Below are positions 2,012-19,466 of a stretch of 20,464 nucleotides of DNA, piece after piece. This DNA comes from a virus: the IMG/VR virus record IMGVR_UViG_3300020129_000286, positions 1-20,464 of that record; one strand, 5' to 3'. Each line of letters begins with the position of its first letter. The stretch's first letter is position 1. The position numbers and the translations under genes are program-made. The notes below the pieces were generated by a model, which was not told the origin of the DNA, made no database searches, and saw nothing but the letters and a program-made list of their open reading frames with translations.

Positions 2012-2332
2012 ATGAAGAACACCACGAACTACGAGCCCAGCGCGTGGATGCGGGAGACGGTGGCCGCGCGGCTGAACCAGATGCCGGCGATCAAGCGGGC
2101 CGCGGTGCACTACGAGATCGTCATGTTGATGCTGACCGAGCCACCCGAGGACGCCACTAAGGAAGAGCGCGACCGGTGGGAGACGCAGTGCGACCGCTGC
2201 GGCAAGCAGTGCGAGCCCGGCCAGGACTTCCACACCGGCAGCCTGACGCCGAACGAGTTCGGTGGCCGGATTGCCATCACCTTCGGCCTGTGCGATGCCT
2301 GCAAGGTGCTCGAGGTGGGTGCCGGTGAGTGA
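2012..2332 (+). CDS. zinc-knuckle hypothetical protein
   Basis: This 106-residue protein is not a family I can name. Its N-terminal half is predicted helical and charged. The C-terminal half carries CDRCGKQC followed about 30 residues later by CDAC, a layout expected for a zinc ribbon. Such small zinc-binding proteins are frequent accessory proteins in actinophage replication regions. The ATG at 2012 follows an AGGAGAGAG ribosome binding site. Its end overlaps the nuclease gene by eight bases, which suggests coupled expression with the helicase and nuclease on either side. The function is unknown. Confidence 0.8.
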   Translation: MKNTTNYEPSAWMRETVAARLNQMPAIKRAAVHYEIVMLMLTEPPEDATKEERDRWETQCDRCGKQCEPGQDFHTGSLTPNEFGGRIAITFGLCDACKVLEVGAGE

Positions 2333-3512
2333 GCAGGTGTGGGCCAGCTACAGCCAGCTGACCAGCCACAGGACCTGTCCACAGAAGTGGATGTACGGCT
2401 ACGAGCGGCGGCTGGAGAAGGTCGACCCGGAGGACATCGCGGTCGAGCGCGACTTCGGCTCGTGGTGGCAGCTGCTGCGGGCGGTCGACTCGATCGAGCG
2501 CGGCCGGAAGCTGGACAGCCTCAAGTGGCTGCCGACCGAACTGACCGCGACGGACGGCGTGTCGATGATCGCGCACACGGCCAGGTGCGACGAGGTGTTC
2601 GCGATGGCCAACGACTGGTGGCGACAGCAGACACCGCACACCTGGGAGACCTGGGCCGAGCGGCTGGGCGAGGCGATGCCCGACCGGCTGGCCGCCCTCG
2701 ATCAGCGGTGGCGGGACCAGTGGGCCACCGAGATCGAGACCGAGCGCCCGCTGGCCGTCGAGCTGGGCTGGGGCCGGAACCTGCCGACCATGCCCGGCCC
2801 CGACAACACGTCGGTCGATCCCAACTGCCGGCTGGTGGGCTACGTCGACGAGGTGTACGAGGACACGAAGCGGCACCTCGTGGTGGTCCGGGACAACAAG
2901 ACCAGCAAGGGCCTGGGCACCCAGTCGGTGGCCGACGACATGATGGACAGCCAGCTCCAGTTCTATGCCTGGGGCGCGAGCCCGACGGTCACCTCGTGGG
3001 GCGTGGGACCGATCCGGGCCACCGCCTACGACCGGATCAAGACGACTAAGCCCAAGACCCCGGTGGTCACGCAGGCCGGCTCCCTCGGCAAGTCCGTCAC
3101 CGACTTCGACCTGGCCACCTACGTCGAGTGGTCGCGCGGCACGGACGGCAACGGCGTCTCGTATCCGGGCCGGTTCAAGGACGGCTCGGGTGCCGGGCGG
3201 TACGTGGCCGAGCCCGCGGTGATCGAGCGGCTCAGCTCACCCTCGTCTGTGTCGGCCTGGTACCAGCGCACCCTCACCCCGCTGAACAACAACCTGATCA
3301 AGGTTCATCTGCGGGCCGCGGTCGACTCGGCCGTCGACCTGCGCCAGTCACGCGCGAGAGTCGCCTTCGCCAACGAGGCGGCGCGGAACCTGACCTCCGG
3401 CTGCCGCTGGTGCGACTTTGCCGGGCTGTGCCGGGCTGAGATGGTGGGTGGCCCTGACGGCGAGTACGAGCTGAGCGACTACCGCCTTCGAGTGCGTCCA
3501 GCCCGCCAGTAA
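2325..3512 (+). CDS. Cas4/RecB-like PD-(D/E)XK nuclease with Fe-S cysteines
   Basis: This 395-residue protein resembles the PD-(D/E)XK (PDDEXK_1) exonucleases of the Cas4/AddB/RecB group, which process DNA ends. The catalytic core is visible as GYVDEVY, then VVVRDNKTS (the D-x-K motif), then QLQFYAW, which matches the QxxxY helix. One cysteine lies at residue 18 (TCPQKW) and three near the C-terminus at 360, 363 and 369 (CRWCDFAGLC). This is the split four-cysteine pattern that binds a 4Fe-4S cluster in AddB and Cas4. The GTG at 2325 is chosen because it overlaps the preceding stop and places the conserved Tyr-Ser start of the domain near the N-terminus. The frame is open further back to 2262, inside the upstream gene. 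It probably supplies end resection for the Sak4/DUF669 pair downstream. Confidence 0.9.
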   Translation: MSEQVWASYSQLTSHRTCPQKWMYGYERRLEKVDPEDIAVERDFGSWWQLLRAVDSIERGRKLDSLKWLPTELTATDGVSMIAHTARCDEVFAMANDWWRQQTPHTWETWAERLGEAMPDRLAALDQRWRDQWATEIETERPLAVELGWGRNLPTMPGPDNTSVDPNCRLVGYVDEVYEDTKRHLVVVRDNKTSKGLGTQSVADDMMDSQLQFYAWGASPTVTSWGVGPIRATAYDRIKTTKPKTPVVTQAGSLGKSVTDFDLATYVEWSRGTDGNGVSYPGRFKDGSGAGRYVAEPAVIERLSSPSSVSAWYQRTLTPLNNNLIKVHLRAAVDSAVDLRQSRARVAFANEAARNLTSGCRWCDFAGLCRAEMVGGPDGEYELSDYRLRVRPARQ

Positions 3513-10757: not shown

Positions 10758-10786
10758 TGGTCACCGTCCGTTGGCCGTATTACGGT
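10758..10786 (+). promoter_or_regulatory. candidate promoter for the modification/packaging operon
   Basis: TGGTCA (10758-10763) and TACGGT (10781-10786) are separated by 17 bases and weakly match SigA -35/-10 elements. Transcription would begin near 10793-10794, at the GTG proposed as the start of the next gene, implying a leaderless mRNA. No ribosome binding site is seen before that GTG, which agrees with this reading. Confidence 0.35.
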
Positions 10787-10793
10787 GCACCCT

Positions 10794-11051
10794 GTGTCAC
10801 CACCTCTCCGCTGCCCCGAGTGCCTGGCCTACGGCCTCGGCGGTCGTGGAGGGGCCGTGCTGATGGGTGCCCGCCCCTCCCGGTGCTGGCTGTGCAACCG
10901 GTGGCGCGTGCGGGTGGCTGCCAAGGTGGGCCAGGCTCTCCGGGCGGAGTACCCGGATGAGGCCGCTGAGCTGCGGAAACAGATCGGCCAGACGGTCTAC
11001 GACGAGCTGATGGAGATCTGGCGCGAGGAGCAGGCAGCGATGAGCGCATGA
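10794..11051 (+). CDS. 85-residue zinc-knuckle hypothetical protein
   Basis: The protein contains CPEC near its N-terminus and CWLC about 25 residues later, a zinc-ribbon layout. A helical, charged C-terminal half (AAELRKQIGQTVYDELMEIW) follows. No family recognised. Two GTG codons could start it, at 10785 and 10794. The second is chosen because it coincides with the predicted transcription start. It heads the block that includes the arginine decarboxylase and is coupled to it through an ATGA overlap, so it could be a regulator of that block, though nothing proves this. Confidence 0.65.
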   Translation: MSPPLRCPECLAYGLGGRGGAVLMGARPSRCWLCNRWRVRVAAKVGQALRAEYPDEAAELRKQIGQTVYDELMEIWREEQAAMSA

Positions 11052-11575
11052 GGTGGGTGCTGGGTAACCGCGTCCCGCGTGACTTCTTCCTGACCCAGGG
11101 CCGGGGCGAGAGCGACATCACCGTCCACGCCGGTTCATTCCATCTGGCCTTGCGGGACGCGGGCATCGAGATGGCGAACATCATGACCTACTCGTCGATC
11201 CTGCCGGCCATCGCGCGGGAGGTCCCTCGACCGCCGATCCGGCACGGCGAGGTGATGGAGTCGATCATGGCCGAGGCGACCTGCGAGAAGGACGAGACGT
11301 GCACTGCCGGGCTGGCGTTCGGCTGGCTGCACGGCCGCGCCTCGGGCGACGTGTGGGGCGGGCTGGTGACCGAGTACACCGGCTCGATGAACGAGGGCCT
11401 GGCGAAGGAGCACATGCGCGACATGCTGACCGAGCTGCACGTCAACGGCTACGAGCACTTCACCCTGGAGGGGATCCGCTGTCTGACCCAGTCCGTCACT
11501 CCCTCGAAGCGGTACGGCACCGCCGTCGTCGGCCTGTGCTTCACGAGCTACGAGTACCCGGTGATCGGGGCATGA
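11048..11575 (+). CDS. pyruvoyl-dependent arginine decarboxylase (AaxB-like)
   Basis: This 175-residue protein matches the pyruvoyl-dependent arginine decarboxylase family, which converts arginine to agmatine and CO2 using a pyruvoyl group made by self-cleavage. Visible landmarks are GRGESD (18-23), SFHLALRDAGIEMANI (30-45), the cleavage site Ser49-Ser50 within YSSILP (48-53), and GEVMESIMAEA (67-77). The Glu in the last segment fits the catalytic acid, and Asn44 aligns with the family's active-site Asn. TAGLAFGWLHG and GGLVTEY follow. The GxGESD and GG-EY segments fit the bacterial AaxB branch (Chlamydia) better than the archaeal enzyme. The length is slightly short of AaxB (about 195). Cleavage would give chains of about 49 and 126 residues. 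Substrate specificity cannot be proven from sequence. An arginine decarboxylase in a phage is unusual. Confidence 0.85.
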   Translation: MRWVLGNRVPRDFFLTQGRGESDITVHAGSFHLALRDAGIEMANIMTYSSILPAIAREVPRPPIRHGEVMESIMAEATCEKDETCTAGLAFGWLHGRASGDVWGGLVTEYTGSMNEGLAKEHMRDMLTELHVNGYEHFTLEGIRCLTQSVTPSKRYGTAVVGLCFTSYEYPVIGA

Positions 11576-12420
11576 GGGCGGCCAGTCTGGCGCGTGACCA
11601 GACCGTCGTCGTGATGGTCACCGTGTCCGAGCGACTGCCGATGCTGAACGCCTTCCTCCGCTCCCTCTCCGCACATGAGCCCGACCGGCCGATCTTCGTG
11701 CACATGCAGGGCGATGACCTGCACCGCGAGATCGAGTGGCCCCGCGGCCTGGCCCACGAGTACATGCACACGCCCGTCCGGCTGGGCTGCCACGCGGCCA
11801 GGGTCCGGGCTCTCCGCCGGCTGGCCAGCACGCCGTTCACCAGCTTCATCAACGTGGACGACGACGTGCTGCTGCTCGACGAGACGAACTGGCAGCCTGC
11901 GATCGACCGCACGATGGAGGAGCCGGGCATCGGGTTCGTGCTGACCGGCTGGGTGAACCACCTCAACCGGGTGCCACACGCCCGCGAGATTATGGCCGAC
12001 GAGTACATCCCGCAGGTGCTCGTCTACAACGGCGGCGGGATGGCGTACACCGAGCAGGTGGCCCGGCTCATCCGCGCCCTCGATCCCTGCCCTGCCCGCT
12101 TCGACGACATCTGGCCGATGACCGCCTACCTCGATGGGCGCCGCAGCTACCGCTACCGGGGCAGCTTGGCCGTGCACGCGATCATGCAGCGGGGCGGGAT
12201 GAACGCCTACATGAAGCAGGAGCCGCGGCCGCTGCTGTGCCAGCAGTGGATCGACTACCGCCCGATCTTCAACGCCAAGGTGGGGCTGGACACCGCGATC
12301 CCGCAGGACAGCGACATCCGCCCCTCCGCCCGCGTGCTGCACCGACAGCGCCGCCTCGAGCAGGGCTGGCCCGTCACCGGCCAGCACCGCACCGCAGTGC
12401 AGGCCGCGAGCCGCAGGTGA
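11572..12420 (+). CDS. GT-A fold glycosyltransferase (GT2-like)
   Basis: This 282-residue protein looks like a nucleotide-sugar glycosyltransferase. The N-terminus (VVVMVTVSERLPMLNAFLRSL, residues 12-32) matches the Rossmann-like start of GT-A enzymes. VDDDVLLLD (95-103) carries the DxD-type metal/nucleotide-sugar site. A mid-protein GGGMAYT loop and the acidic FDDIW segment near residue 181 fit the acceptor side and catalytic base region. No signal peptide or membrane helix is present, so it acts in the cytoplasm, on DNA, a phage protein or a metabolite. The ATG overlaps the decarboxylase stop, and the frame is open further upstream inside that gene. A second GT-like gene follows with a GTGA overlap. 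Confidence 0.8.
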   Translation: MRAASLARDQTVVVMVTVSERLPMLNAFLRSLSAHEPDRPIFVHMQGDDLHREIEWPRGLAHEYMHTPVRLGCHAARVRALRRLASTPFTSFINVDDDVLLLDETNWQPAIDRTMEEPGIGFVLTGWVNHLNRVPHAREIMADEYIPQVLVYNGGGMAYTEQVARLIRALDPCPARFDDIWPMTAYLDGRRSYRYRGSLAVHAIMQRGGMNAYMKQEPRPLLCQQWIDYRPIFNAKVGLDTAIPQDSDIRPSARVLHRQRRLEQGWPVTGQHRTAVQAASRR

Positions 12421-13145
12421 CCACCCGCCACCGCCTGCACGTGATCCATGTGCCGGGCGTGGACCCGATCAGGGACGCGGCTGTGGCCACCCTTCAGCAG
12501 GAGGCCGACGTCTGCCTGCACCCGGACACCGAGCGCCGCGGAGTGATGTGGAACTGGGTGACCGCGATGGACTGCATCGCCGGCCGAGTGGCCCGTCCCT
12601 CCCTCGATGCGGACTGGGCCGACTGGCACTTCGTGGTGCAGGACGACATGCGCCCGTATCCCCGCTGGGAGCAGGAGCTGAGCCGCGCCACGAAGTACAG
12701 CCCGGCCCTCGTGCTCGGCCTGTGCTGGATCGGTGAGCGGTGGAGCGAGGGCGTCGCCGCCAACCGGCCGTACATGACCGGGAAGTACATCCTCCGGGGC
12801 GGGGCGATCGCCTACCACCGGTCCGTCTTCCCCGCGCTCAGCCACTTCGCCCGGGGTATCAGCACCCTGACCACGTTCAAGCACGATGATGTGGCCGCCA
12901 GCCTGTGGTGCCAGCGGGTGGCCGGGTTCGACCCCGCGCTCACCTCCCGCTGCCTGTTCGAGAGCCTGATGACCCGCTCCCTCGTGAGCCACGGCCGTTA
13001 CCCGACCGGTGTTCACTCGATCGAGAACACCCCCGGCCCGGACTGGGCGACCATGCCCCGCTCGATCGAGGTGAACATCGACCGCTACCGATCGGACACG
13101 AACGTGGTGCTGGCGGAGATGAAGAAGAAGGGCTGGCGACCGTGA
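12417..13145 (+). CDS. second glycosyltransferase-like protein
   Basis: This 242-residue protein has a GT-A-like layout: a first strand LHVIHVPG (7-14), an Asn/Trp-rich helix, and the strand WHFVVQDDMRPYP (70-82), which holds the Asp-Asp pair where the DxD motif is expected. KHDDVAASLW (about 156-165) matches the acidic segment found after the acceptor loop in such enzymes. It shares little obvious sequence with the preceding GT, so a recent duplication is unlikely. The GTG start is set by the four-base overlap with the previous gene. The assignment as a glycosyltransferase is moderately sure; donor and acceptor are unknown. Confidence 0.65.
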   Translation: MTTRHRLHVIHVPGVDPIRDAAVATLQQEADVCLHPDTERRGVMWNWVTAMDCIAGRVARPSLDADWADWHFVVQDDMRPYPRWEQELSRATKYSPALVLGLCWIGERWSEGVAANRPYMTGKYILRGGAIAYHRSVFPALSHFARGISTLTTFKHDDVAASLWCQRVAGFDPALTSRCLFESLMTRSLVSHGRYPTGVHSIENTPGPDWATMPRSIEVNIDRYRSDTNVVLAEMKKKGWRP

Positions 13146-14071
13146 CCACGACACCCGTACCACGCAGCGACTCGCTGTTGGTCACCCGCGCGGACCTGGA
13201 CTCGTGGCTGGCCACGGCCCCCGACCTGGACTGGACGTGGGCCAAGACCTACGCCGACACCGCACCGCACAGCTACGTCGTGCACCCGCACAAACAGCTG
13301 GACCGGGAGGACTTCCGCCGAGCATCCAGAGTGATCCGCGCCTTCGGTGAGCCGGGCCGGTTCTACACCAACACCAACATCTATCTGGCCGATCACCCGA
13401 GCGGCAAGAAGTGGTGGTCGATGGACCGCCACCCGGACGACGGCGACCTGATCAACCAGGCCGACCTCGCCCTCGTGTACGGCCCGCAGGACGCGCCCGC
13501 CACCGCCCTCCGCCCGCCCGTCACGGCCACCCCGCCACCGCCCTCGGCCGACCGGTTCACCGCGATCGCGCCCAACTACGACGCCACCCGCCCGTCCGCG
13601 GACACCTCTGCCGGACAGACCCTGCGGTCGATCGTGGTCCGGCACTTCGGGGCGTACGCGCCGACCACCCTCGACGTGGGCTGCGGGACCGGCCGGCTGC
13701 TGGACCTGGGGATCACCGCGCCGGGCGTCTACATCGGGGTCGACGCCAGCCAGGGGATGCTCAACGAGCTGGTGCTCAAGCACCCCCGGCTGACCGCCCC
13801 ATCGGTCATCGCTGCCGATGCGAACGCCCTGCCGTGGCAGTACACGCCCCAGCCCGACCTGGTCGTCGCGCTGTTCGGCAGCGCGGACTACCTCGCCCCA
13901 CAAACCATCCGCGAGCTGGCCAAGCACGCCCGCTCGATGGCGATCTTCATGCACGACGCCGACCACCGCCCCGTCGCCTCGACCACGGCCACCGCGCGCG
14001 GACTGCTCGCCCACCACCGCGGCTATCAGCTCAAGCTGGCGAACTACGAGACGGTGGTGATCGAGAAGTGA
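13142..14071 (+). CDS. class I SAM methyltransferase with N-terminal extra domain
   Basis: This 309-residue protein has two parts. Residues 1-115 form a separate domain with WAKTYADTAPHSYVV, then FRRASRVIRAFGEPGRFY, then KKWWSMD and LINQADLALVYG. I have seen this pattern in phage proteins, but it has no function I can name. A Pro-rich linker (about 116-137) leads to a class I methyltransferase: motif I LDVGCGTG (177-184), the acidic residue after strand 2 in GVDAS (199-203), ADANALPW (225-232) and the strand-4 segment LVVALFGSADYL (240-251). No DPPY/NPPY motif of N6-adenine or N4-cytosine DNA methylases is seen, so the target may be a small molecule, sugar or protein. It is coupled to neighbours on both sides by GTGA overlaps. 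Confidence 0.85.
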   Translation: MTTTPVPRSDSLLVTRADLDSWLATAPDLDWTWAKTYADTAPHSYVVHPHKQLDREDFRRASRVIRAFGEPGRFYTNTNIYLADHPSGKKWWSMDRHPDDGDLINQADLALVYGPQDAPATALRPPVTATPPPPSADRFTAIAPNYDATRPSADTSAGQTLRSIVVRHFGAYAPTTLDVGCGTGRLLDLGITAPGVYIGVDASQGMLNELVLKHPRLTAPSVIAADANALPWQYTPQPDLVVALFGSADYLAPQTIRELAKHARSMAIFMHDADHRPVASTTATARGLLAHHRGYQLKLANYETVVIEK

Positions 14072-15288
14072 TCATCCAGCCGCGCACCAAGCCTGCCTCG
14101 ACCAGGTTGCTCCAGCACCGGCCGACCTTCGTGGGCCCGGCAAGGCCGCGGATCGTGACGAATCTGAGCGTCTACGACGCCGCCCTCGACCGGATCAGGT
14201 GGCTGTTCGACGAGTTCGACGACCACATCATGGTGTCCAACTCGGGCGGCAAGGACTCGACCGTGCTGCTCGAGCTGGCGGCCATCGTGAACAACGAGCG
14301 CGGCCGCAAGCGGGGCCCGCTCAAGGTGCACTGGCTGGACCAGGAGTGCGAGTTCCAGGCGACCGTGGACTACCAGCGCTACATCATGTACGAGCGCCCC
14401 GACATCGACTTCCGTTGGTACCAAATACCTTTCAAGCTGGAGAACTCCTCCAACATGGAGGACGAGTGGCTGTACGTCTGGGACCCGGAGCTTGAGCCCG
14501 ACCCGACCGCCGACCCGCCGCGGCCGCACGGCTGGGTGCGGGACAAGGAGCCCAACAGCATCCACGTCAACGACACCGGGGAGTGGGAGTTCTACTCGAT
14601 CCTCAAGACCCTCGGCACCCGCGAGTTCGAGGGCGCGATCCTCGACGGCATCCGGGCGGACGAGTCCCCGGCGCGGCGGCTGGCCAGCACGAGCAGTCCG
14701 ATGTACAAGTGGACGACCTGGAGCGCAGAGGACGTGGTGCCCAGCACGGGCAAGCACCTGTTCCGCTTCCACCCGATCTACGACTGGCTCTACCACGATG
14801 TCTGGAAGGCGATCCAGGACCACGGCTGGCGGTACAACGAGCACTACGAACACCTGTTCCAGCACGGCATCTCGATCAGGAACATGCGGGTTAGCAACTA
14901 CCACCACAAGTCGGCGCTGTCCTCCCTGACCTGGCTGCAGGAGGTCGAGCCCGACACCTGGGAGGCCGCGACCAAGCGCTTGAGTGGCATCAGCACCTGG
15001 GGCCACATCGGCAAGGACCAGATCCCCACCTCCCTGCCGTACATGTTCGCCAGCTGGGACGAGTACCTCGACCATCTGATCGAGAACCTGGTGACCCGCG
15101 AGGACCGGCGAGCCACCTACCGGCACCACTACGCGAAGCTGCTCAAGGCGTGCAGTCACCTGCCCAAGGAGGAGCTGGCCCAGGTGATGGTGACCGGCGT
15201 GCTGGGCAACGACTTCTACGGTGTGCACATCGGGAACTTCATGGTCAACCACCGGACCCGCAAGGACACGGAGTGGAGAGCCACATGA
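14068..15288 (+). CDS. ibrA-like: IbrA-like PP-loop protein (PAPS reductase family, DUF3440-like)
   Basis: This 406-residue protein has the PP-loop SGGKDS at residues 59-64, used by PAPS reductases and related ATP pyrophosphatases. The C-terminal half resembles the DUF3440 region of IbrA: FHPIYDWLYHDVWKAIQDHGWRYNEHYE, a following MRVSN, then EVEPDTWEAATKRLSGIS. IbrA is found on prophages and mobile elements beside IbrB, a ParB-like protein, exactly as here. There is no cysteine motif of the assimilatory reductase (ECGLH) at the C-terminus, so sulfate assimilation is unlikely. The true reaction is unknown. The GTG start at 14068 overlaps the upstream stop, and the frame is open much further back only as a shadow of the methyltransferase gene. 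Confidence 0.85.
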   Translation: MIIQPRTKPASTRLLQHRPTFVGPARPRIVTNLSVYDAALDRIRWLFDEFDDHIMVSNSGGKDSTVLLELAAIVNNERGRKRGPLKVHWLDQECEFQATVDYQRYIMYERPDIDFRWYQIPFKLENSSNMEDEWLYVWDPELEPDPTADPPRPHGWVRDKEPNSIHVNDTGEWEFYSILKTLGTREFEGAILDGIRADESPARRLASTSSPMYKWTTWSAEDVVPSTGKHLFRFHPIYDWLYHDVWKAIQDHGWRYNEHYEHLFQHGISIRNMRVSNYHHKSALSSLTWLQEVEPDTWEAATKRLSGISTWGHIGKDQIPTSLPYMFASWDEYLDHLIENLVTREDRRATYRHHYAKLLKACSHLPKEELAQVMVTGVLGNDFYGVHIGNFMVNHRTRKDTEWRAT

Positions 15289-16046
15289 CCAGCCCCGCCG
15301 GCAGAGCCGCGCACCCCAACGCAGGCCAGGTCCTGCACACGAACGGCGGCCCGCACTCTCGGACCAGCCCGCCCGACGCCACGGCCCGCTACCAGCCCGT
15401 CACGATCGCGGAGAAGGTGGACCACGCGAACCGGCTGGCCCGCGAGGCCGCGGCCCTGCTGCCGTGGAACGACCCGGTCGGCGTGGTCCAGTGGGTGCAC
15501 ATCAGCCGGATCCAGGCCAACGAATACAACCCGAACTCGGTGGCCAACCAGGAGATGAAGCTGCTGTACACGAGCATCGACGCTGACGGCTACACCCAGC
15601 CGGTGGTGGCGATCTGGGACCCGGACGCCGCCTCGGGAGACGGGCGCTACATCATCGTCGACGGCTTCCACCGCTGGACCGTGATGCGGAAGTACGCCGA
15701 CATCCGCGCCGCCCGCTCCGGTTACCTGCCGGTCGTGGTGCTCGACAAGCCGCCCGCGGACCGAATGGCCTCGACCATCCGGCACAACCGGGCACGCGGG
15801 AAGCACTCGGTCACCGGCATGGGCGCGCTCATCTTCGGGATGCTGAACGAGGGCCAGACCGACGAGCAGATCTGCAACAAGCTGGGCATGGAGCCGGGCG
15901 AGCTCTCCCGGCTCAAGCACATCACCGGCTACAGCAAGCTGTATGCCAACGCCACCCACTCGATGGTCGCCCAGACCAAGACCCAGATCGAGGCCAAGGC
16001 GGCCTACAAACAGGACCACCCCGATGAGGAGATACCGCCGTGGTGA
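15285..16046 (+). CDS. ibrB-like: IbrB-like ParB-domain protein
   Basis: This 253-residue protein is the expected partner of the preceding IbrA-like gene. After a low-complexity N-terminus (1-35) it has a ParB/Srx-type domain: NEYNPNSVANQEMKLL (79-94), DGYTQPVV (101-108), YIIVDGFHRW (122-131) and STIRHNRARGKHSV (163-176). The last two are strongly diagnostic of the IbrB branch. A helix-turn-helix-like region follows (DEQICNKLGMEPGELSRLKH). In E. coli IbrA and IbrB act together to control expression of immunoglobulin-binding proteins, so a regulatory or nucleotide-dependent DNA-binding role is the best guess. There is no ParA gene nearby. The start is coupled to the previous stop by ATGA. Confidence 0.87.
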   Translation: MTSPAGRAAHPNAGQVLHTNGGPHSRTSPPDATARYQPVTIAEKVDHANRLAREAAALLPWNDPVGVVQWVHISRIQANEYNPNSVANQEMKLLYTSIDADGYTQPVVAIWDPDAASGDGRYIIVDGFHRWTVMRKYADIRAARSGYLPVVVLDKPPADRMASTIRHNRARGKHSVTGMGALIFGMLNEGQTDEQICNKLGMEPGELSRLKHITGYSKLYANATHSMVAQTKTQIEAKAAYKQDHPDEEIPPW

Positions 16047-16651
16047 AAGCCCGCCCGCGCACGAACGCAACCGCCCCCTTATCGGCCGGCGAGCTGGTCA
16101 CGGTGCCGATCGACTCGATCAAGCCGTACTGGCGGAACCCGCGGCGGGTGACCGAGGACGCCGTCAACCAGCTGGTCGAGAGCATCACCCGGTACGGCTA
16201 CCAGCAGCCGATCGTCACCGACAAAGACAGGGTGATCATCGTCGGCCACACCCGCTACGCGGCCCTTCGGAGGATGAAGGTCACCGACGTGCCGATCAGG
16301 ATCGACACCAGCCTGACCCAGGAGCAGGTGAAGCAGTACCGGCTGATCGACAACAAGGTCGGAGAGCTGACCTTCTGGGACTACGAGGCACTCGTCGAGG
16401 AGATCGCGGACCTCGACCAGTCCCTGATCCACTCGTTCTTCCCGGAGGTGGACACCAAGCGGCCGATCGTGGACGTCGACCTGGAGACGATGAACCGGGA
16501 GTGGGACAAGGTGGAGACGGGCGTGGGGTTCACCTGCCCGAAGTGCTACCACTCGTGGGAGGTGCAGGTCACCCGCGACGATCTGCAGGCGGGCCTGATC
16601 CCCGCGCCCACCCCGACCACCACACCCGCCACCGAGGACGCGACGGCATGA
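16040..16651 (+). CDS. ParB-domain protein, first of a tandem pair
   Basis: This 203-residue protein carries the ParB N-terminal domain of the type often fused to, or encoded beside, phage DNA methylases: IKPYWRNPRR (27-36), VESITRYGYQQPIV (46-59), VIIVGHTRYAAL (65-76) and the trailing KQYRLIDNKVGELTFWDYEAL. The C-terminal part has one zinc-knuckle half-site, Cys166-x2-Cys169 (CPKC), and a low-complexity Pro/Thr tail. No other cysteine is present, so a complete site would need a partner chain. Two adjacent GTG codons (16040 and 16043) can start it. 16040 has the better spacing from GAGGAGA. The next gene encodes a clear paralog, coupled by ATGA. Confidence 0.85.
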   Translation: MVKARPRTNATAPLSAGELVTVPIDSIKPYWRNPRRVTEDAVNQLVESITRYGYQQPIVTDKDRVIIVGHTRYAALRRMKVTDVPIRIDTSLTQEQVKQYRLIDNKVGELTFWDYEALVEEIADLDQSLIHSFFPEVDTKRPIVDVDLETMNREWDKVETGVGFTCPKCYHSWEVQVTRDDLQAGLIPAPTPTTTPATEDATA

Positions 16652-17274
16652 GCATCCAGATCGCACCGCCCGAGACCCGCACTCTCGCGCTCGCGGACAT
16701 CAAACCCTACTTCCGCAACCCTCGGAAGATCCCGCAGAACGCCATCGACCAGGTCCGCTCCTCGATCGAACGCTATGGATACCAGCAGTCGATCGTGGTG
16801 GACCCCGACAACGTGGTGGTAGTCGGGCACACGAGACTCCTTGCGCTGCAACAACTTCCCGACCCGCCCCAACAGGTCGAGGTGTACGTCACGCACCTGC
16901 CGGCGGACAAGGTGCGGGAGTACCGGCTGGTCGACAACCGGACCAGCGAGCTGAGCCAGTGGGACCCCTCGGCCCTGGTGATGGAGCTGCGCGAGTTCGA
17001 GACCAGCCTGCTGGAGGAGTTCTTCCCCGAGGTCGACCTGGAGATATCGGCCATCAACGACGTGCTGGTCAACAGCAACGACGTGGACGCCGCGAACAAG
17101 AAGCTGCTGGACGTGAAGCTGGACAACCCGCTGCTGGTCACCCTCGTCGAGTGCCCGGCCTGCTTCGAGCGGTTCGAGGTCAGCACCGCCTCCCTGCCAG
17201 GACTCAGCCGCGCCGACCTCGCGACCCTGACGGCAGCCCAGCTCGAGCCGGCAGACGATGGCGAGACCGGGTAG
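16648..17274 (+). CDS. ParB-domain protein, second of a tandem pair
   Basis: This 208-residue protein is a paralog of the preceding one: IKPYFRNPRK (18-27), SSIERYGYQQSIV (38-50), VVVVGHTRLLAL (56-67), REYRLVDNRTSELSQWDPSAL, and FFPEVD at the same relative place. It also has a single Cys169-x2-Cys172 (CPAC) near the C-terminus, and no other cysteine. The middle (INDVLVNSNDVDAANKKLL) differs from its partner. The GHTR residues suggest ParB-type nucleotide or DNA contact; whether it binds CTP, cleaves DNA or acts on a modified base is unknown. It overlaps the terminase small subunit gene by 17 bases, linking the island to packaging. Confidence 0.85.
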   Translation: MSIQIAPPETRTLALADIKPYFRNPRKIPQNAIDQVRSSIERYGYQQSIVVDPDNVVVVGHTRLLALQQLPDPPQQVEVYVTHLPADKVREYRLVDNRTSELSQWDPSALVMELREFETSLLEEFFPEVDLEISAINDVLVNSNDVDAANKKLLDVKLDNPLLVTLVECPACFERFEVSTASLPGLSRADLATLTAAQLEPADDGETG

Positions 17275-17797
17275 CAAGCCGCCCGCCTCCGGGAAGCCCG
17301 CCCTCGTGGTGCATCGGAACATCAACGACGCACGGGTGAAGCGGGAGGAGTCGCGGCGCAGCGAAGCGCTCAGCCTGCGGATGGCCGGGCTGACCTACAG
17401 CCAGATAGCCGAGCGGCTGGAGATCAGCGAGACCGCCGCCAGCGAGCTGATCGGCCGCACCCTCGAACACGGCAACGCGCCCGAGGTGGATGAGCTGCGG
17501 GCACTGGAGAACGCGCGGCTGGACCGCAGCCAGGCCTCGATCTGGTCGAGAGTGCTGGAGGGCGACACCCAGGCGATCGACGCGTTTCTGCGGATCAGCC
17601 AGCGCCGGGCGCGGCTCAACGGGATGGACGCGCCGGTCCGGGTGGACCTCTCCGTGAGTGTCAGGCAGGAGATGGAGAGCGCGCTGACCGCCCTCGAAGC
17701 CGTTGTGCTGAACACCGCGACCACGGCGGCCGGCATTCGCCCGTACCAGGTGGTCGACAGCGACGACGATCCGAGCGACCGTGACTCAGACGACTGA
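17258..17797 (+). CDS. terS: terminase small subunit
   Basis: This 179-residue protein fits the phage terminase small subunit, which recognises the packaging site and loads the large subunit. A helix-turn-helix lies near residues 38-66 (LSLRMAGLTYSQIAERL and onward). The conserved central helices read LDRSQASIWSRVLEGDTQAIDAFLRISQRRARLNGMDAP, typical of actinophage small terminases. The acidic tail (DSDDDPSDRDSDD) may contact the large subunit. It starts at an ATG inside the ParB gene and overlaps the large subunit gene by 17 bases. Confidence 0.85.
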   Translation: MARPGSKPPASGKPALVVHRNINDARVKREESRRSEALSLRMAGLTYSQIAERLEISETAASELIGRTLEHGNAPEVDELRALENARLDRSQASIWSRVLEGDTQAIDAFLRISQRRARLNGMDAPVRVDLSVSVRQEMESALTALEAVVLNTATTAAGIRPYQVVDSDDDPSDRDSDD

Positions 17798-19466
17798 CCC
17801 GTCGGAGCTGATCGCCCAGCTGCGCGAGGCCGCCTCCCGCGCGCGGAACGACGACGAGGTGCGGCAGGTCACCAGCAAGATCGCGCAGCTCACCCGCGCC
17901 TACCGGATCGCGCACGGCATCGGGATACCCAGCAGCCCGGCGGACCAGGCCCGCGAGATCGACCCCGGCTACGTCGTGCGGCCGCACCTGCGCTACCTCT
18001 CGGACCGGCTCGCCCAGGCGGTCAAGGACGTGGAGCAGGGCCAGAACCGGATGCTCGCGGTGTCCATGCCGCCGCGGGCCGGCAAGAGCACCCTGCTCTC
18101 GATCTACAGCCCGCTGTGGCTGCTCCGGCGGCACCCGGAGTGGAAGATCGTGCTGGCCTCCCACGACGGCGGCCTGACGACCGTGTGGGCCCGCAGCATC
18201 CGCCGGATGATCGAGGACCGGCCGTCCCTCGGGATCGCGCTATCGAGAGACGGCGGAGCCGGTAGCCAGTGGGAGACCGTCGAGGGCGGCGGGATGTTCT
18301 CGACCTCGGTACGCGGCACGCTGACCGGCCGCGGTGCCCGCGTGCTGATCATCGACGACCCGGTCAAGGGCTTCGTCGAGGCGCACAGCCAGGCGACCAG
18401 GCAATCCCTCTGGGACTGGTGGCTCTCGGTCGCCCAGACCCGGCTCGAGCCGCCGTTCCTCTGCCTGGTGGTGATGACCCGCTGGCACGAGGACGACTTC
18501 GTGGGCCGGCTGTTCAGCCCGGACCACGAGGGCGATCCGCAACTGTGGGAGCGGATCAGTCTGCCCGCCATCGCGGACCGGCCGGACGATGTGCTGCACC
18601 GCACCGAAGGAATGCCGCTGCTGTCCCCGCTGGTGGCCGAGTCGACCGAGCAGGCCTCGATCAGGTGGGCCGAGGTGCGCCGCTCGGTCGGCACCTACAC
18701 CTTCTCGGCCATGTACCAGCAGCGACCGGCGCCGGCGAAGGGCGCGATCTTCGACTCGGGCTGGTGGCGGTTCTGGACGATCGACCCGGAGAAGGCCACC
18801 CTCGACGGCCGGGTGCTGCACCTCGACCCCTCGTCCCTGATCAACGCGCGGTGGCTGGACAGCTGGGACTGCAACTTCGAGTCCTCCGACGACTCGGTCG
18901 GCGGCTGGGTGGTCGGCCAGCGGTGGGTGCGCTTCGGCGCGAACAGGTTCCTGATCGCGCAGCAGCGCAAGCGCTGGACGTTCACCCAGACCCTGGCCGC
19001 GATGGACAAGTGGGCGCAGACCGACAACCCCGTCGGGTCTCCGTGCGGGCACCTCGTGCACGAGCGGCTGATCGAGAAGAAGGCCAACGGCGCGGCCATC
19101 ATCAACGTGCTGCAGGACCGGATATCGGGCCTGAAGCCGATCATCCCGACGGCCTCGAAGGAGTCGCGCGCCCGCGCTATCACGCCCGAGGTGGAGTCCG
19201 GCAACGTCTACCTGCCGCACCCCTCGGACCCGGGCAACGAGTGGGTCCAGGACCTCCTCTCGGAATTGCGCAACTTCCCGCACGACGCCTTCGACGACCA
19301 GGTGGACAGCCTGACCCAGGCCCTCTCGAATCTGCGCGACACCGGCCGCGGAATGGTGACCGTGCCCGGCCACAGCAATGGCACGCCGGGCCGGCAGATA
19401 CCGCAGTCCAGGACAGCCGCGGCATTCACGGATATGAACAGGCATCGCGGGTTCGGCCGCAACTGA
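17781..19466 (+). CDS. terL: terminase large subunit (ATPase/nuclease)
   Basis: This 561-residue protein is the DNA-packaging motor. Walker A is PPRAGKST at residues 97-104. Walker B is VLIIDD at 188-193, with the second Asp likely acting as the catalytic carboxylate. A coupling segment, VMTRWHEDD, follows near residue 232. The C-terminal nuclease half begins near WLDSWDCNFESSDDS (about 358-372), where the first acidic residue of the RNase H-like site is expected, and ends with a DAFDDQVDSL-type acidic motif near residue 510. The length is normal for a complete subunit. The GTG start lies inside the small-subunit gene. It is followed by a 299-base region and not directly by a portal gene. Confidence 0.95.
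   Translation: MTQTTDPSELIAQLREAASRARNDDEVRQVTSKIAQLTRAYRIAHGIGIPSSPADQAREIDPGYVVRPHLRYLSDRLAQAVKDVEQGQNRMLAVSMPPRAGKSTLLSIYSPLWLLRRHPEWKIVLASHDGGLTTVWARSIRRMIEDRPSLGIALSRDGGAGSQWETVEGGGMFSTSVRGTLTGRGARVLIIDDPVKGFVEAHSQATRQSLWDWWLSVAQTRLEPPFLCLVVMTRWHEDDFVGRLFSPDHEGDPQLWERISLPAIADRPDDVLHRTEGMPLLSPLVAESTEQASIRWAEVRRSVGTYTFSAMYQQRPAPAKGAIFDSGWWRFWTIDPEKATLDGRVLHLDPSSLINARWLDSWDCNFESSDDSVGGWVVGQRWVRFGANRFLIAQQRKRWTFTQTLAAMDKWAQTDNPVGSPCGHLVHERLIEKKANGAAIINVLQDRISGLKPIIPTASKESRARAITPEVESGNVYLPHPSDPGNEWVQDLLSELRNFPHDAFDDQVDSLTQALSNLRDTGRGMVTVPGHSNGTPGRQIPQSRTAAAFTDMNRHRGFGRN

Follow-up and report, generated by a model that had tools for sequence, protein, structure and literature searches.

The DNA analyzed here, referred to throughout as the window, is the complete 20,464-base IMG/VR record IMGVR_UViG_3300020129_000286, a genome fragment of a soil phage; as the record is incomplete, the lack of a gene in it says little. 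It carries a run of genes leading into the terminase genes, which an earlier reading of the DNA letters (the original prediction) had presented as a candidate modification island of eight coupled genes in one run. All eight open reading frames (ORFs) were present on the + strand at 11048-17274, chained by 4-base overlaps of start and stop codons. The start of the run needed correction, as a zinc-ribbon gene at 10785-11051 opens it one gene upstream of the eight and overlaps the arginine decarboxylase gene by 4 bases. The genes computed in frame had a GC content of 0.90-0.95 at third codon positions. The features of the island and of the adjoining terminase genes are as follows.

10785-11051, + strand: zinc-ribbon protein (hp0) of 88 amino acids, the leftmost product of the island; 32% identity to Rasputia gp149.
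11048-11575, + strand: predicted pyruvoyl-dependent arginine decarboxylase (ArgDC), cargo; PvlArgDC PF01862, with conserved active-site residues.
11572-12420, + strand: GT1, putative GT-A glycosyltransferase, cargo; VDDDV motif, phrog_2456 (E 0.14).
12417-13145, + strand: GT2, predicted GT-A fold glycosyltransferase, cargo that is widespread in the clade; homologues and predicted fold.
13142-14071, + strand: methyltransferase with an N-terminal PHxY/YWxM domain, core; PF13649, 33.5 bits.
14068-15288, + strand: IbrA-like PP-loop ATPase, core; phrog_2302 (E 5e-68), PAPS_reduct 56.9 bits.
15285-16046, + strand: IbrB-like ParB, core; phrog_2159 (E 3e-65), 52-58% identity to Rogerhendrixvirus gp1.
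16043-16651, + strand: ParB-like protein, the only product to exceed the ParB_N cut-off; phrog_620 (E 3e-40).
16648-17274, + strand: ParB-like protein, a paralogue of the preceding product (about 40% identity); phrog_620 (E 4e-32).
17258-17797, + strand: terS-like helix-turn-helix (HTH) protein preceding terL; HTH matches, phrog_645, 43-52% identity to Rogerhendrixvirus gp4.
17781-19466, + strand: terL, terminase large subunit; PF17289, PF03237, Terminase_6C (6.8e-11), phrog_38 (E 3e-83).

Family matches thus bore out the ArgDC, the IbrA-like PP-loop protein, the IbrB-like ParB, the two further ParBs and the two-domain methyltransferase of the original prediction. Comparison with other phages showed that the methyltransferase, the PP-loop protein and the IbrB-like ParB are a core that travels together, and that the remaining genes are swappable cargo. 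Searched with the methyltransferase family, IMG/VR yielded 28 viral loci, and in all 28 of these methyltransferase-selected loci the three genes lay on one strand in the order methyltransferase, PP-loop, IbrB-like ParB, if the Hendrix copy is included, whose record ends before IbrB is reached; the weakest case was locus L195. The PP-loop proteins of these loci, the window and the isolates fell into 24 groups at 90% identity and 16 at 70%, those of the core loci ranged down to 29% identity with the window protein, and third-position GC varied widely among the core-bearing contigs.

The nearest isolated phages were the Microbacterium phages Leaf, Dewdrop, Hendrix and Rasputia (Rogerhendrixvirus; 95-98 kb), whose TerL proteins were about 62% identical to that of the window, and the island recurred in them. 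Like the window, they carry the zinc-ribbon gene, a GT2 homologue, the two-domain methyltransferase, PP-loop, IbrB, two ParB genes, the terS-like gene and terL; unlike the window, they have neither ArgDC nor GT1, and have an acetyltransferase and other glycosyltransferases instead. Their island is located at the genome ends, with IbrB, ParB, ParB, terS-like and terL at the left end, and the Hendrix record accordingly ends before IbrB, which is found at its opposite end. A survey of Microbacterium phages described Hendrix as a singleton whose genes are mostly orphans (PMC7302621), and we found no discussion of the island in that survey. The proposal that all eight genes are gained and lost as one unit was rejected, because ArgDC and the glycosyltransferases vary among relatives; the trio does behave as a unit.

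The predicted position of the island next to the terminase genes held, with the terS-like gene and terL following it directly. In every member of the window's clade that extended far enough, terL followed the ParB genes, and IMG/VR contigs selected by TerL (58-69% identity) that reached upstream showed PP-loop, IbrB, ParB, ParB, terS-like and terL as far as they extended. A terminase was also found downstream of the core in 8 of 10 distant loci, of the Terminase_6 family in L178, L180, L184, L189 and L195 and of the TerL_ATPase/TerL_nuclease type in L185, L193 and L196; in L183 and L197 a large downstream ORF gave no terminase match. The linkage therefore survives a swap of the TerL family, which suggests that common descent of a single locus is not the whole explanation. 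Whether the genes are expressed together late or the cassette acts on DNA ahead of packaging, the linkage would be explained equally well.

In the methyltransferase, a class I enzyme, the PF13649 domain was assigned to residues 177-264. An AlphaFold2 model (predicted local distance difference test (pLDDT) 90) matched TylM1 over residues 138-309 with a Z score of 16.5, and there was a weak match to phrog_4752 (tRNA methyltransferase). The N-terminal signature (PHxY, YWxM and NxA) accompanied the methyltransferase almost throughout the core loci, and the N-terminal domain (13142-13470 in the window) matched no Pfam or PHROG family. The structural matches listed for the model were taken up by the catalytic domain, and we do not claim the N-terminal domain as a new fold. 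In two loci (L192:2073-2408 and L194:3203-3541) this domain is encoded by a stand-alone gene beside the methyltransferase gene.

The PP-loop protein combines the PAPS_reduct match with a DUF3440-like region (23.9 bits, just below the cut-off of 25) and adjoins a ParB partner, and the two proteins are thus an IbrA/IbrB-type pair. Its SGGKDST motif was invariant in 21 sequences, among which there was no conserved cysteine column; the best column held cysteine in 12 of 21 and lacked it in the window protein. An invariant motif without a conserved cysteine indicates that the enzyme should adenylate its substrate and not pass sulfur through cysteines of its own. This bears on a further possibility, that the island encodes a DndC/SspD-like sulfurtransferase for phosphorothioation or for the thiolation of bases; the PAPS reductase-type domain and weak PADLOC matches (BrxP, E 1e-5; DndC, E 1e-3) would point that way. 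DndC requires a cysteine dyad and a cysteine-bound cluster (PMC10853773); in view of the 21 sequences, DndC/SspD-type sulfur transfer was rejected, and we regard sulfur chemistry of this kind as highly improbable. Two observations on IbrA/IbrB-type genes elsewhere may be recorded here. Directly ahead of the pair in Streptococcus and Flavobacterium phages lies a SNF2-type helicase gene (L204:3267-4505, L208:3227-4450 and L093:4145-5356), and gp104 of Mycobacterium phage Gaia (L091:7356-8255) is an IbrB-like ParB fused to an ectoine-synthase/cupin domain.

Action of the core on tRNA or other RNA during infection, in the manner of TilS and with the terminase nearby only by coincidence, was also considered. 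In Hendrix, Rasputia and Dewdrop (L082, L084 and L085) the island is immediately preceded by tRNA genes, Hendrix carries an RtcB-type ligase, and tRNA enzymes are found among the relatives of the PP-loop protein, to which the phrog_4752 match of the methyltransferase may be added. In the window, however, no tRNA gene was detected, and in unrelated phages the linkage is to terminase and not to tRNA genes. An RNA target consequently appears improbable to us.

The variable genes sit between the zinc-ribbon gene, which stands before the cargo in most clade members extending that far, and the core, and at times within the core; in a close relative, for example, a phrog_16701 peptidase-like gene lies between the PP-loop and IbrB genes (L005:391-1089). 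They comprise GT2, GT25-like, GT32-like and Stealth-like genes, a GNAT acetyltransferase, a second methyltransferase, DPPW-motif DNA-methylase-like genes, a possible oxygenase, the peptidase-like gene and ArgDC. At least one glycosyltransferase preceded the core in every clade contig that extended that far. Of the two glycosyltransferases of the original prediction, GT2 was upheld by its predicted GT-A fold and annotated homologues, whereas the assignment of GT1 came from a DDD motif only. Neither matched Pfam, and PDB sequence searches with both returned nothing relevant. GT2 showed 33-36% identity to Rogerhendrixvirus proteins annotated as glycosyltransferases. In its model, of moderate confidence (pLDDT 68), residues 4-194 matched GT-A structures (Z 13.1, root-mean-square deviation 3.5, 172 residues), and the acidic QDD metal motif was kept, fully or partly, in 5 of 6 sequences. 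From the modeled fold and the motif, GT2 is predicted to be a GT-A glycosyltransferase; fold likeness says nothing on the acceptor. A single-sequence scan for GT2 relatives was empty and a profile scan gave matches; GT2 and the GT25-like proteins appear mutually related (HHalign probability 91%). GT1 gave no Pfam, PDB or profile match, its best PHROG match (phrog_2456) being below threshold, and is a putative glycosyltransferase by motif.

DPPW-motif DNA-methylase-like genes were found in or beside the cassette in six fetched loci (L174:2119-2841, L183:5253-5900, L193:10434-11051, L195:12243-12926, L196:8300-8932 and L198:10753-11358), of which only that of L195 passed the N6_N4_Mtase Pfam cut-off. 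Two further loci (L173:1725-2336 and L185:3407-4120) encode related proteins with an HxD...H pattern as in 2-oxoglutarate/Fe(II) oxygenases and no Pfam match; judging from this pattern, they represent a possible handle-making oxygenase in two cassettes.

The ArgDC of the window scored 96.7 bits against PF01862 (cut-off 22.7) and did not reach the NCBIfam equivalog cut-offs. Ser49-Ser50 (the self-cleavage site), Asn44 and Glu109 (catalytic) match the solved enzyme of M. jannaschii and are kept in cellular relatives, and the product is thus a predicted pyruvoyl-dependent arginine decarboxylase. The nearest cellular relatives (54-59% identity) were from Microscilla, Spirochaetes and Woesearchaeota, and in 5 of 6 cases they adjoin agmatinase, AdoMet decarboxylase, spermidine synthase or deoxyhypusine-synthase-like genes. 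No ArgDC was found in isolated phages or in the three complete genomes of relatives searched, and among the clade members examined the window alone carries it. Two initial pattern scans of IMG/VR were empty; a better profile found a second viral ArgDC of 53% identity among small unknown neighbours in an AT-rich 86 kb phage contig (L210:7990-8511; IMGVR_UViG_3300037308_000440).

ArgDC could accordingly be an independent auxiliary gene, its agmatine being converted by host enzymes to polyamines that neutralize DNA charge in packaging or support the infected cell. The polyamine operons of the cellular relatives, the absence of the gene from the rest of the clade and its solitary occurrence in an unrelated phage all fit this explanation; the L210 contig, having no PP-loop match, indicates that ArgDC can stand by itself in this way. 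On the other side, the gene is translationally coupled to the island and lies within the cargo slot, and no downstream polyamine gene was found in the window fragment. We give an independent role of ArgDC an even chance. It can hold together with a modification cassette, and the confidences that we attach to the alternatives are not exclusive.

Taken together, we interpret the island as a nucleic acid modification cassette, most likely acting on DNA, in which the core is fixed and the tailoring enzymes can be exchanged, and assign this reading a probability of about 0.45. With ATP, the PP-loop enzyme would adenylate an oxygen atom, either of the base itself or of a group attached to it, and would then couple a nonsulfur nucleophile, for instance an amine; its ParB-fold partner may assist through DNA contact or NTP chemistry; and the methyltransferase and the cargo (glycosyltransferases, acetyltransferase and possibly ArgDC-derived agmatine) would complete the decoration or make it vary, and host restriction enzymes would thus meet different decorations in related phages. 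The sequence itself shows which genes are present, their order and coupling, the conserved core, the changing cargo and the terminase linkage; the chemistry, the sequence of reaction steps and any link between ArgDC and the core are inferred. Among the comparisons, the best hint that DNA is the target comes from those cassettes that also contain a DPPW-motif DNA-methylase-like gene. A hydroxymethyl-pyrimidine route, for which the original prediction had looked to the rest of the genome, is disfavoured. No thymidylate-synthase-family hydroxymethylase was found in three complete relatives or 12 further records, and control genomes did match; since such enzymes are missing from the complete relatives, a hydroxymethyl handle of this origin is unlikely. 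A search for Tet_JBP oxygenases gave no match, but the control genomes gave none either. In a narrower form, the PP-loop enzyme would attach ArgDC-made agmatine to a DNA base, as a counterpart of tRNA lysidine and agmatidine, the methyltransferase and glycosyltransferases would elaborate it, and the same core would attach other amines elsewhere. This form is speculative and, in our estimate, distinctly improbable; the agmatine step is its least certain part, weakly suggested only by the ArgDC gene of one phage.

Several observations weigh against a DNA modification cassette. That DNA is the target is our inference, and no handle-making enzyme was identified. The catalytic half of the methyltransferase resembles amino-sugar N-methyltransferases and not DNA methylases. 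PP-loop/IbrB pairs are found in many phages that have neither glycosyltransferases nor the two-domain methyltransferase; the latter is lacking, for example, beside the pairs of Athena, Salgado, FCL-2 and Gaia and of Streptococcus, Bacillus, Rhizobium, Faecalibacterium and Escherichia phages. The distant core loci are mostly without a recognized glycosyltransferase, and the second viral ArgDC belongs to an unrelated phage in whose contig the profiles used matched no PP-loop or polyamine gene. Some of these observations would also be expected if the island were two unrelated neighbours, the PP-loop, IbrB and ParB genes being a regulatory or counter-defence unit and the front genes a separate cluster, with glycosyltransferases, a methyltransferase and an acetyltransferase that would decorate virion proteins or host surface glycans. 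Some of the solitary PP-loop/IbrB pairs carry the annotation of co-activators of prophage gene expression, the nearest folds of GT2 include protein glycosyltransferases (COLGALT1, LH3 and a PBCV-1 capsid glycosyltransferase), and an amino-sugar type of methyltransferase would suit surface decoration. However, the methyltransferase is always accompanied by PP-loop/IbrB, even where no glycosyltransferase is visible, which indicates that at least the methyltransferase belongs to the core, and the cluster adjoins terminase and not structural or tail genes. We consider two unrelated neighbours unlikely. The virion-surface alternative raised by the original prediction is weakened for the core, and may still apply to the glycosyltransferases.

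If IbrA/IbrB-type proteins do modify DNA, the cassette would represent a way of decorating bases for which no hydroxymethylase is required, and many of the PAPS reductase annotations in phages would be recast; if the agmatine or amine form were also true, phages would make a class of DNA bases not known before, and would do so without a hydroxymethyl handle. That the trio recurs ahead of terminase genes from more than one family points to a single modification strategy shared by many phages. The trio is unnamed and easily missed, as its parts go under the annotations PAPS reductase, adenylyltransferase, methyltransferase or ParB. As its closest carriers are isolated laboratory phages, the question of DNA modification by IbrA/IbrB is directly testable.

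The left part of the window consists of replication and recombination genes, all on the + strand, which besides the two below include genes for an AAA ATPase, a DUF669 protein, a DUF932 protein and a SWIM protein. No Rfam family was found in the window, and a promoter and terminator scan of it gave matches no better than chance.

343-2001, + strand: SNF2-type helicase.
Around 2325-3512, + strand: PD-(D/E)XK nuclease.

Among known systems, IbrA/IbrB and the phage pairs of "PAPS reductase" and ParB likewise place a PP-loop protein beside a ParB partner, and differ from the present group in that they lack the two-domain methyltransferase. Iyer et al. in 2013 reportedly predicted a lysidine-like pyrimidine modification by phage PP-loop enzymes; that prediction resembles the idea put forward here, in which a phage PP-loop enzyme would put an amine on a base. 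In the Dpd 7-deazaguanine systems, the ParB-like ATPase DpdB works with base modification enzymes (PMC12839542). The island shares with them a ParB-fold partner, whereas the queuosine-type transglycosylase of Dpd was not seen in the window proteins scanned. In phage S-B43, CmoX/CmoY carry out cytosine carboxymethylation, after which glycine is coupled by an ATP-dependent ligase of the asparagine-synthetase type, and ParBc genes are found in many CmoX/CmoY neighbourhoods (PMC12783734). The eight window proteins include neither a C5-cytosine methylase nor an asparagine-synthetase domain, and the island is thus not a CmoX/CmoY system. The resemblance is one of strategy, namely a handle on the base and ATP-dependent ligation of an amine, as proposed for the island, with a ParBc gene nearby, and CmoX/CmoY serves as a precedent for the island and not as its homologue.

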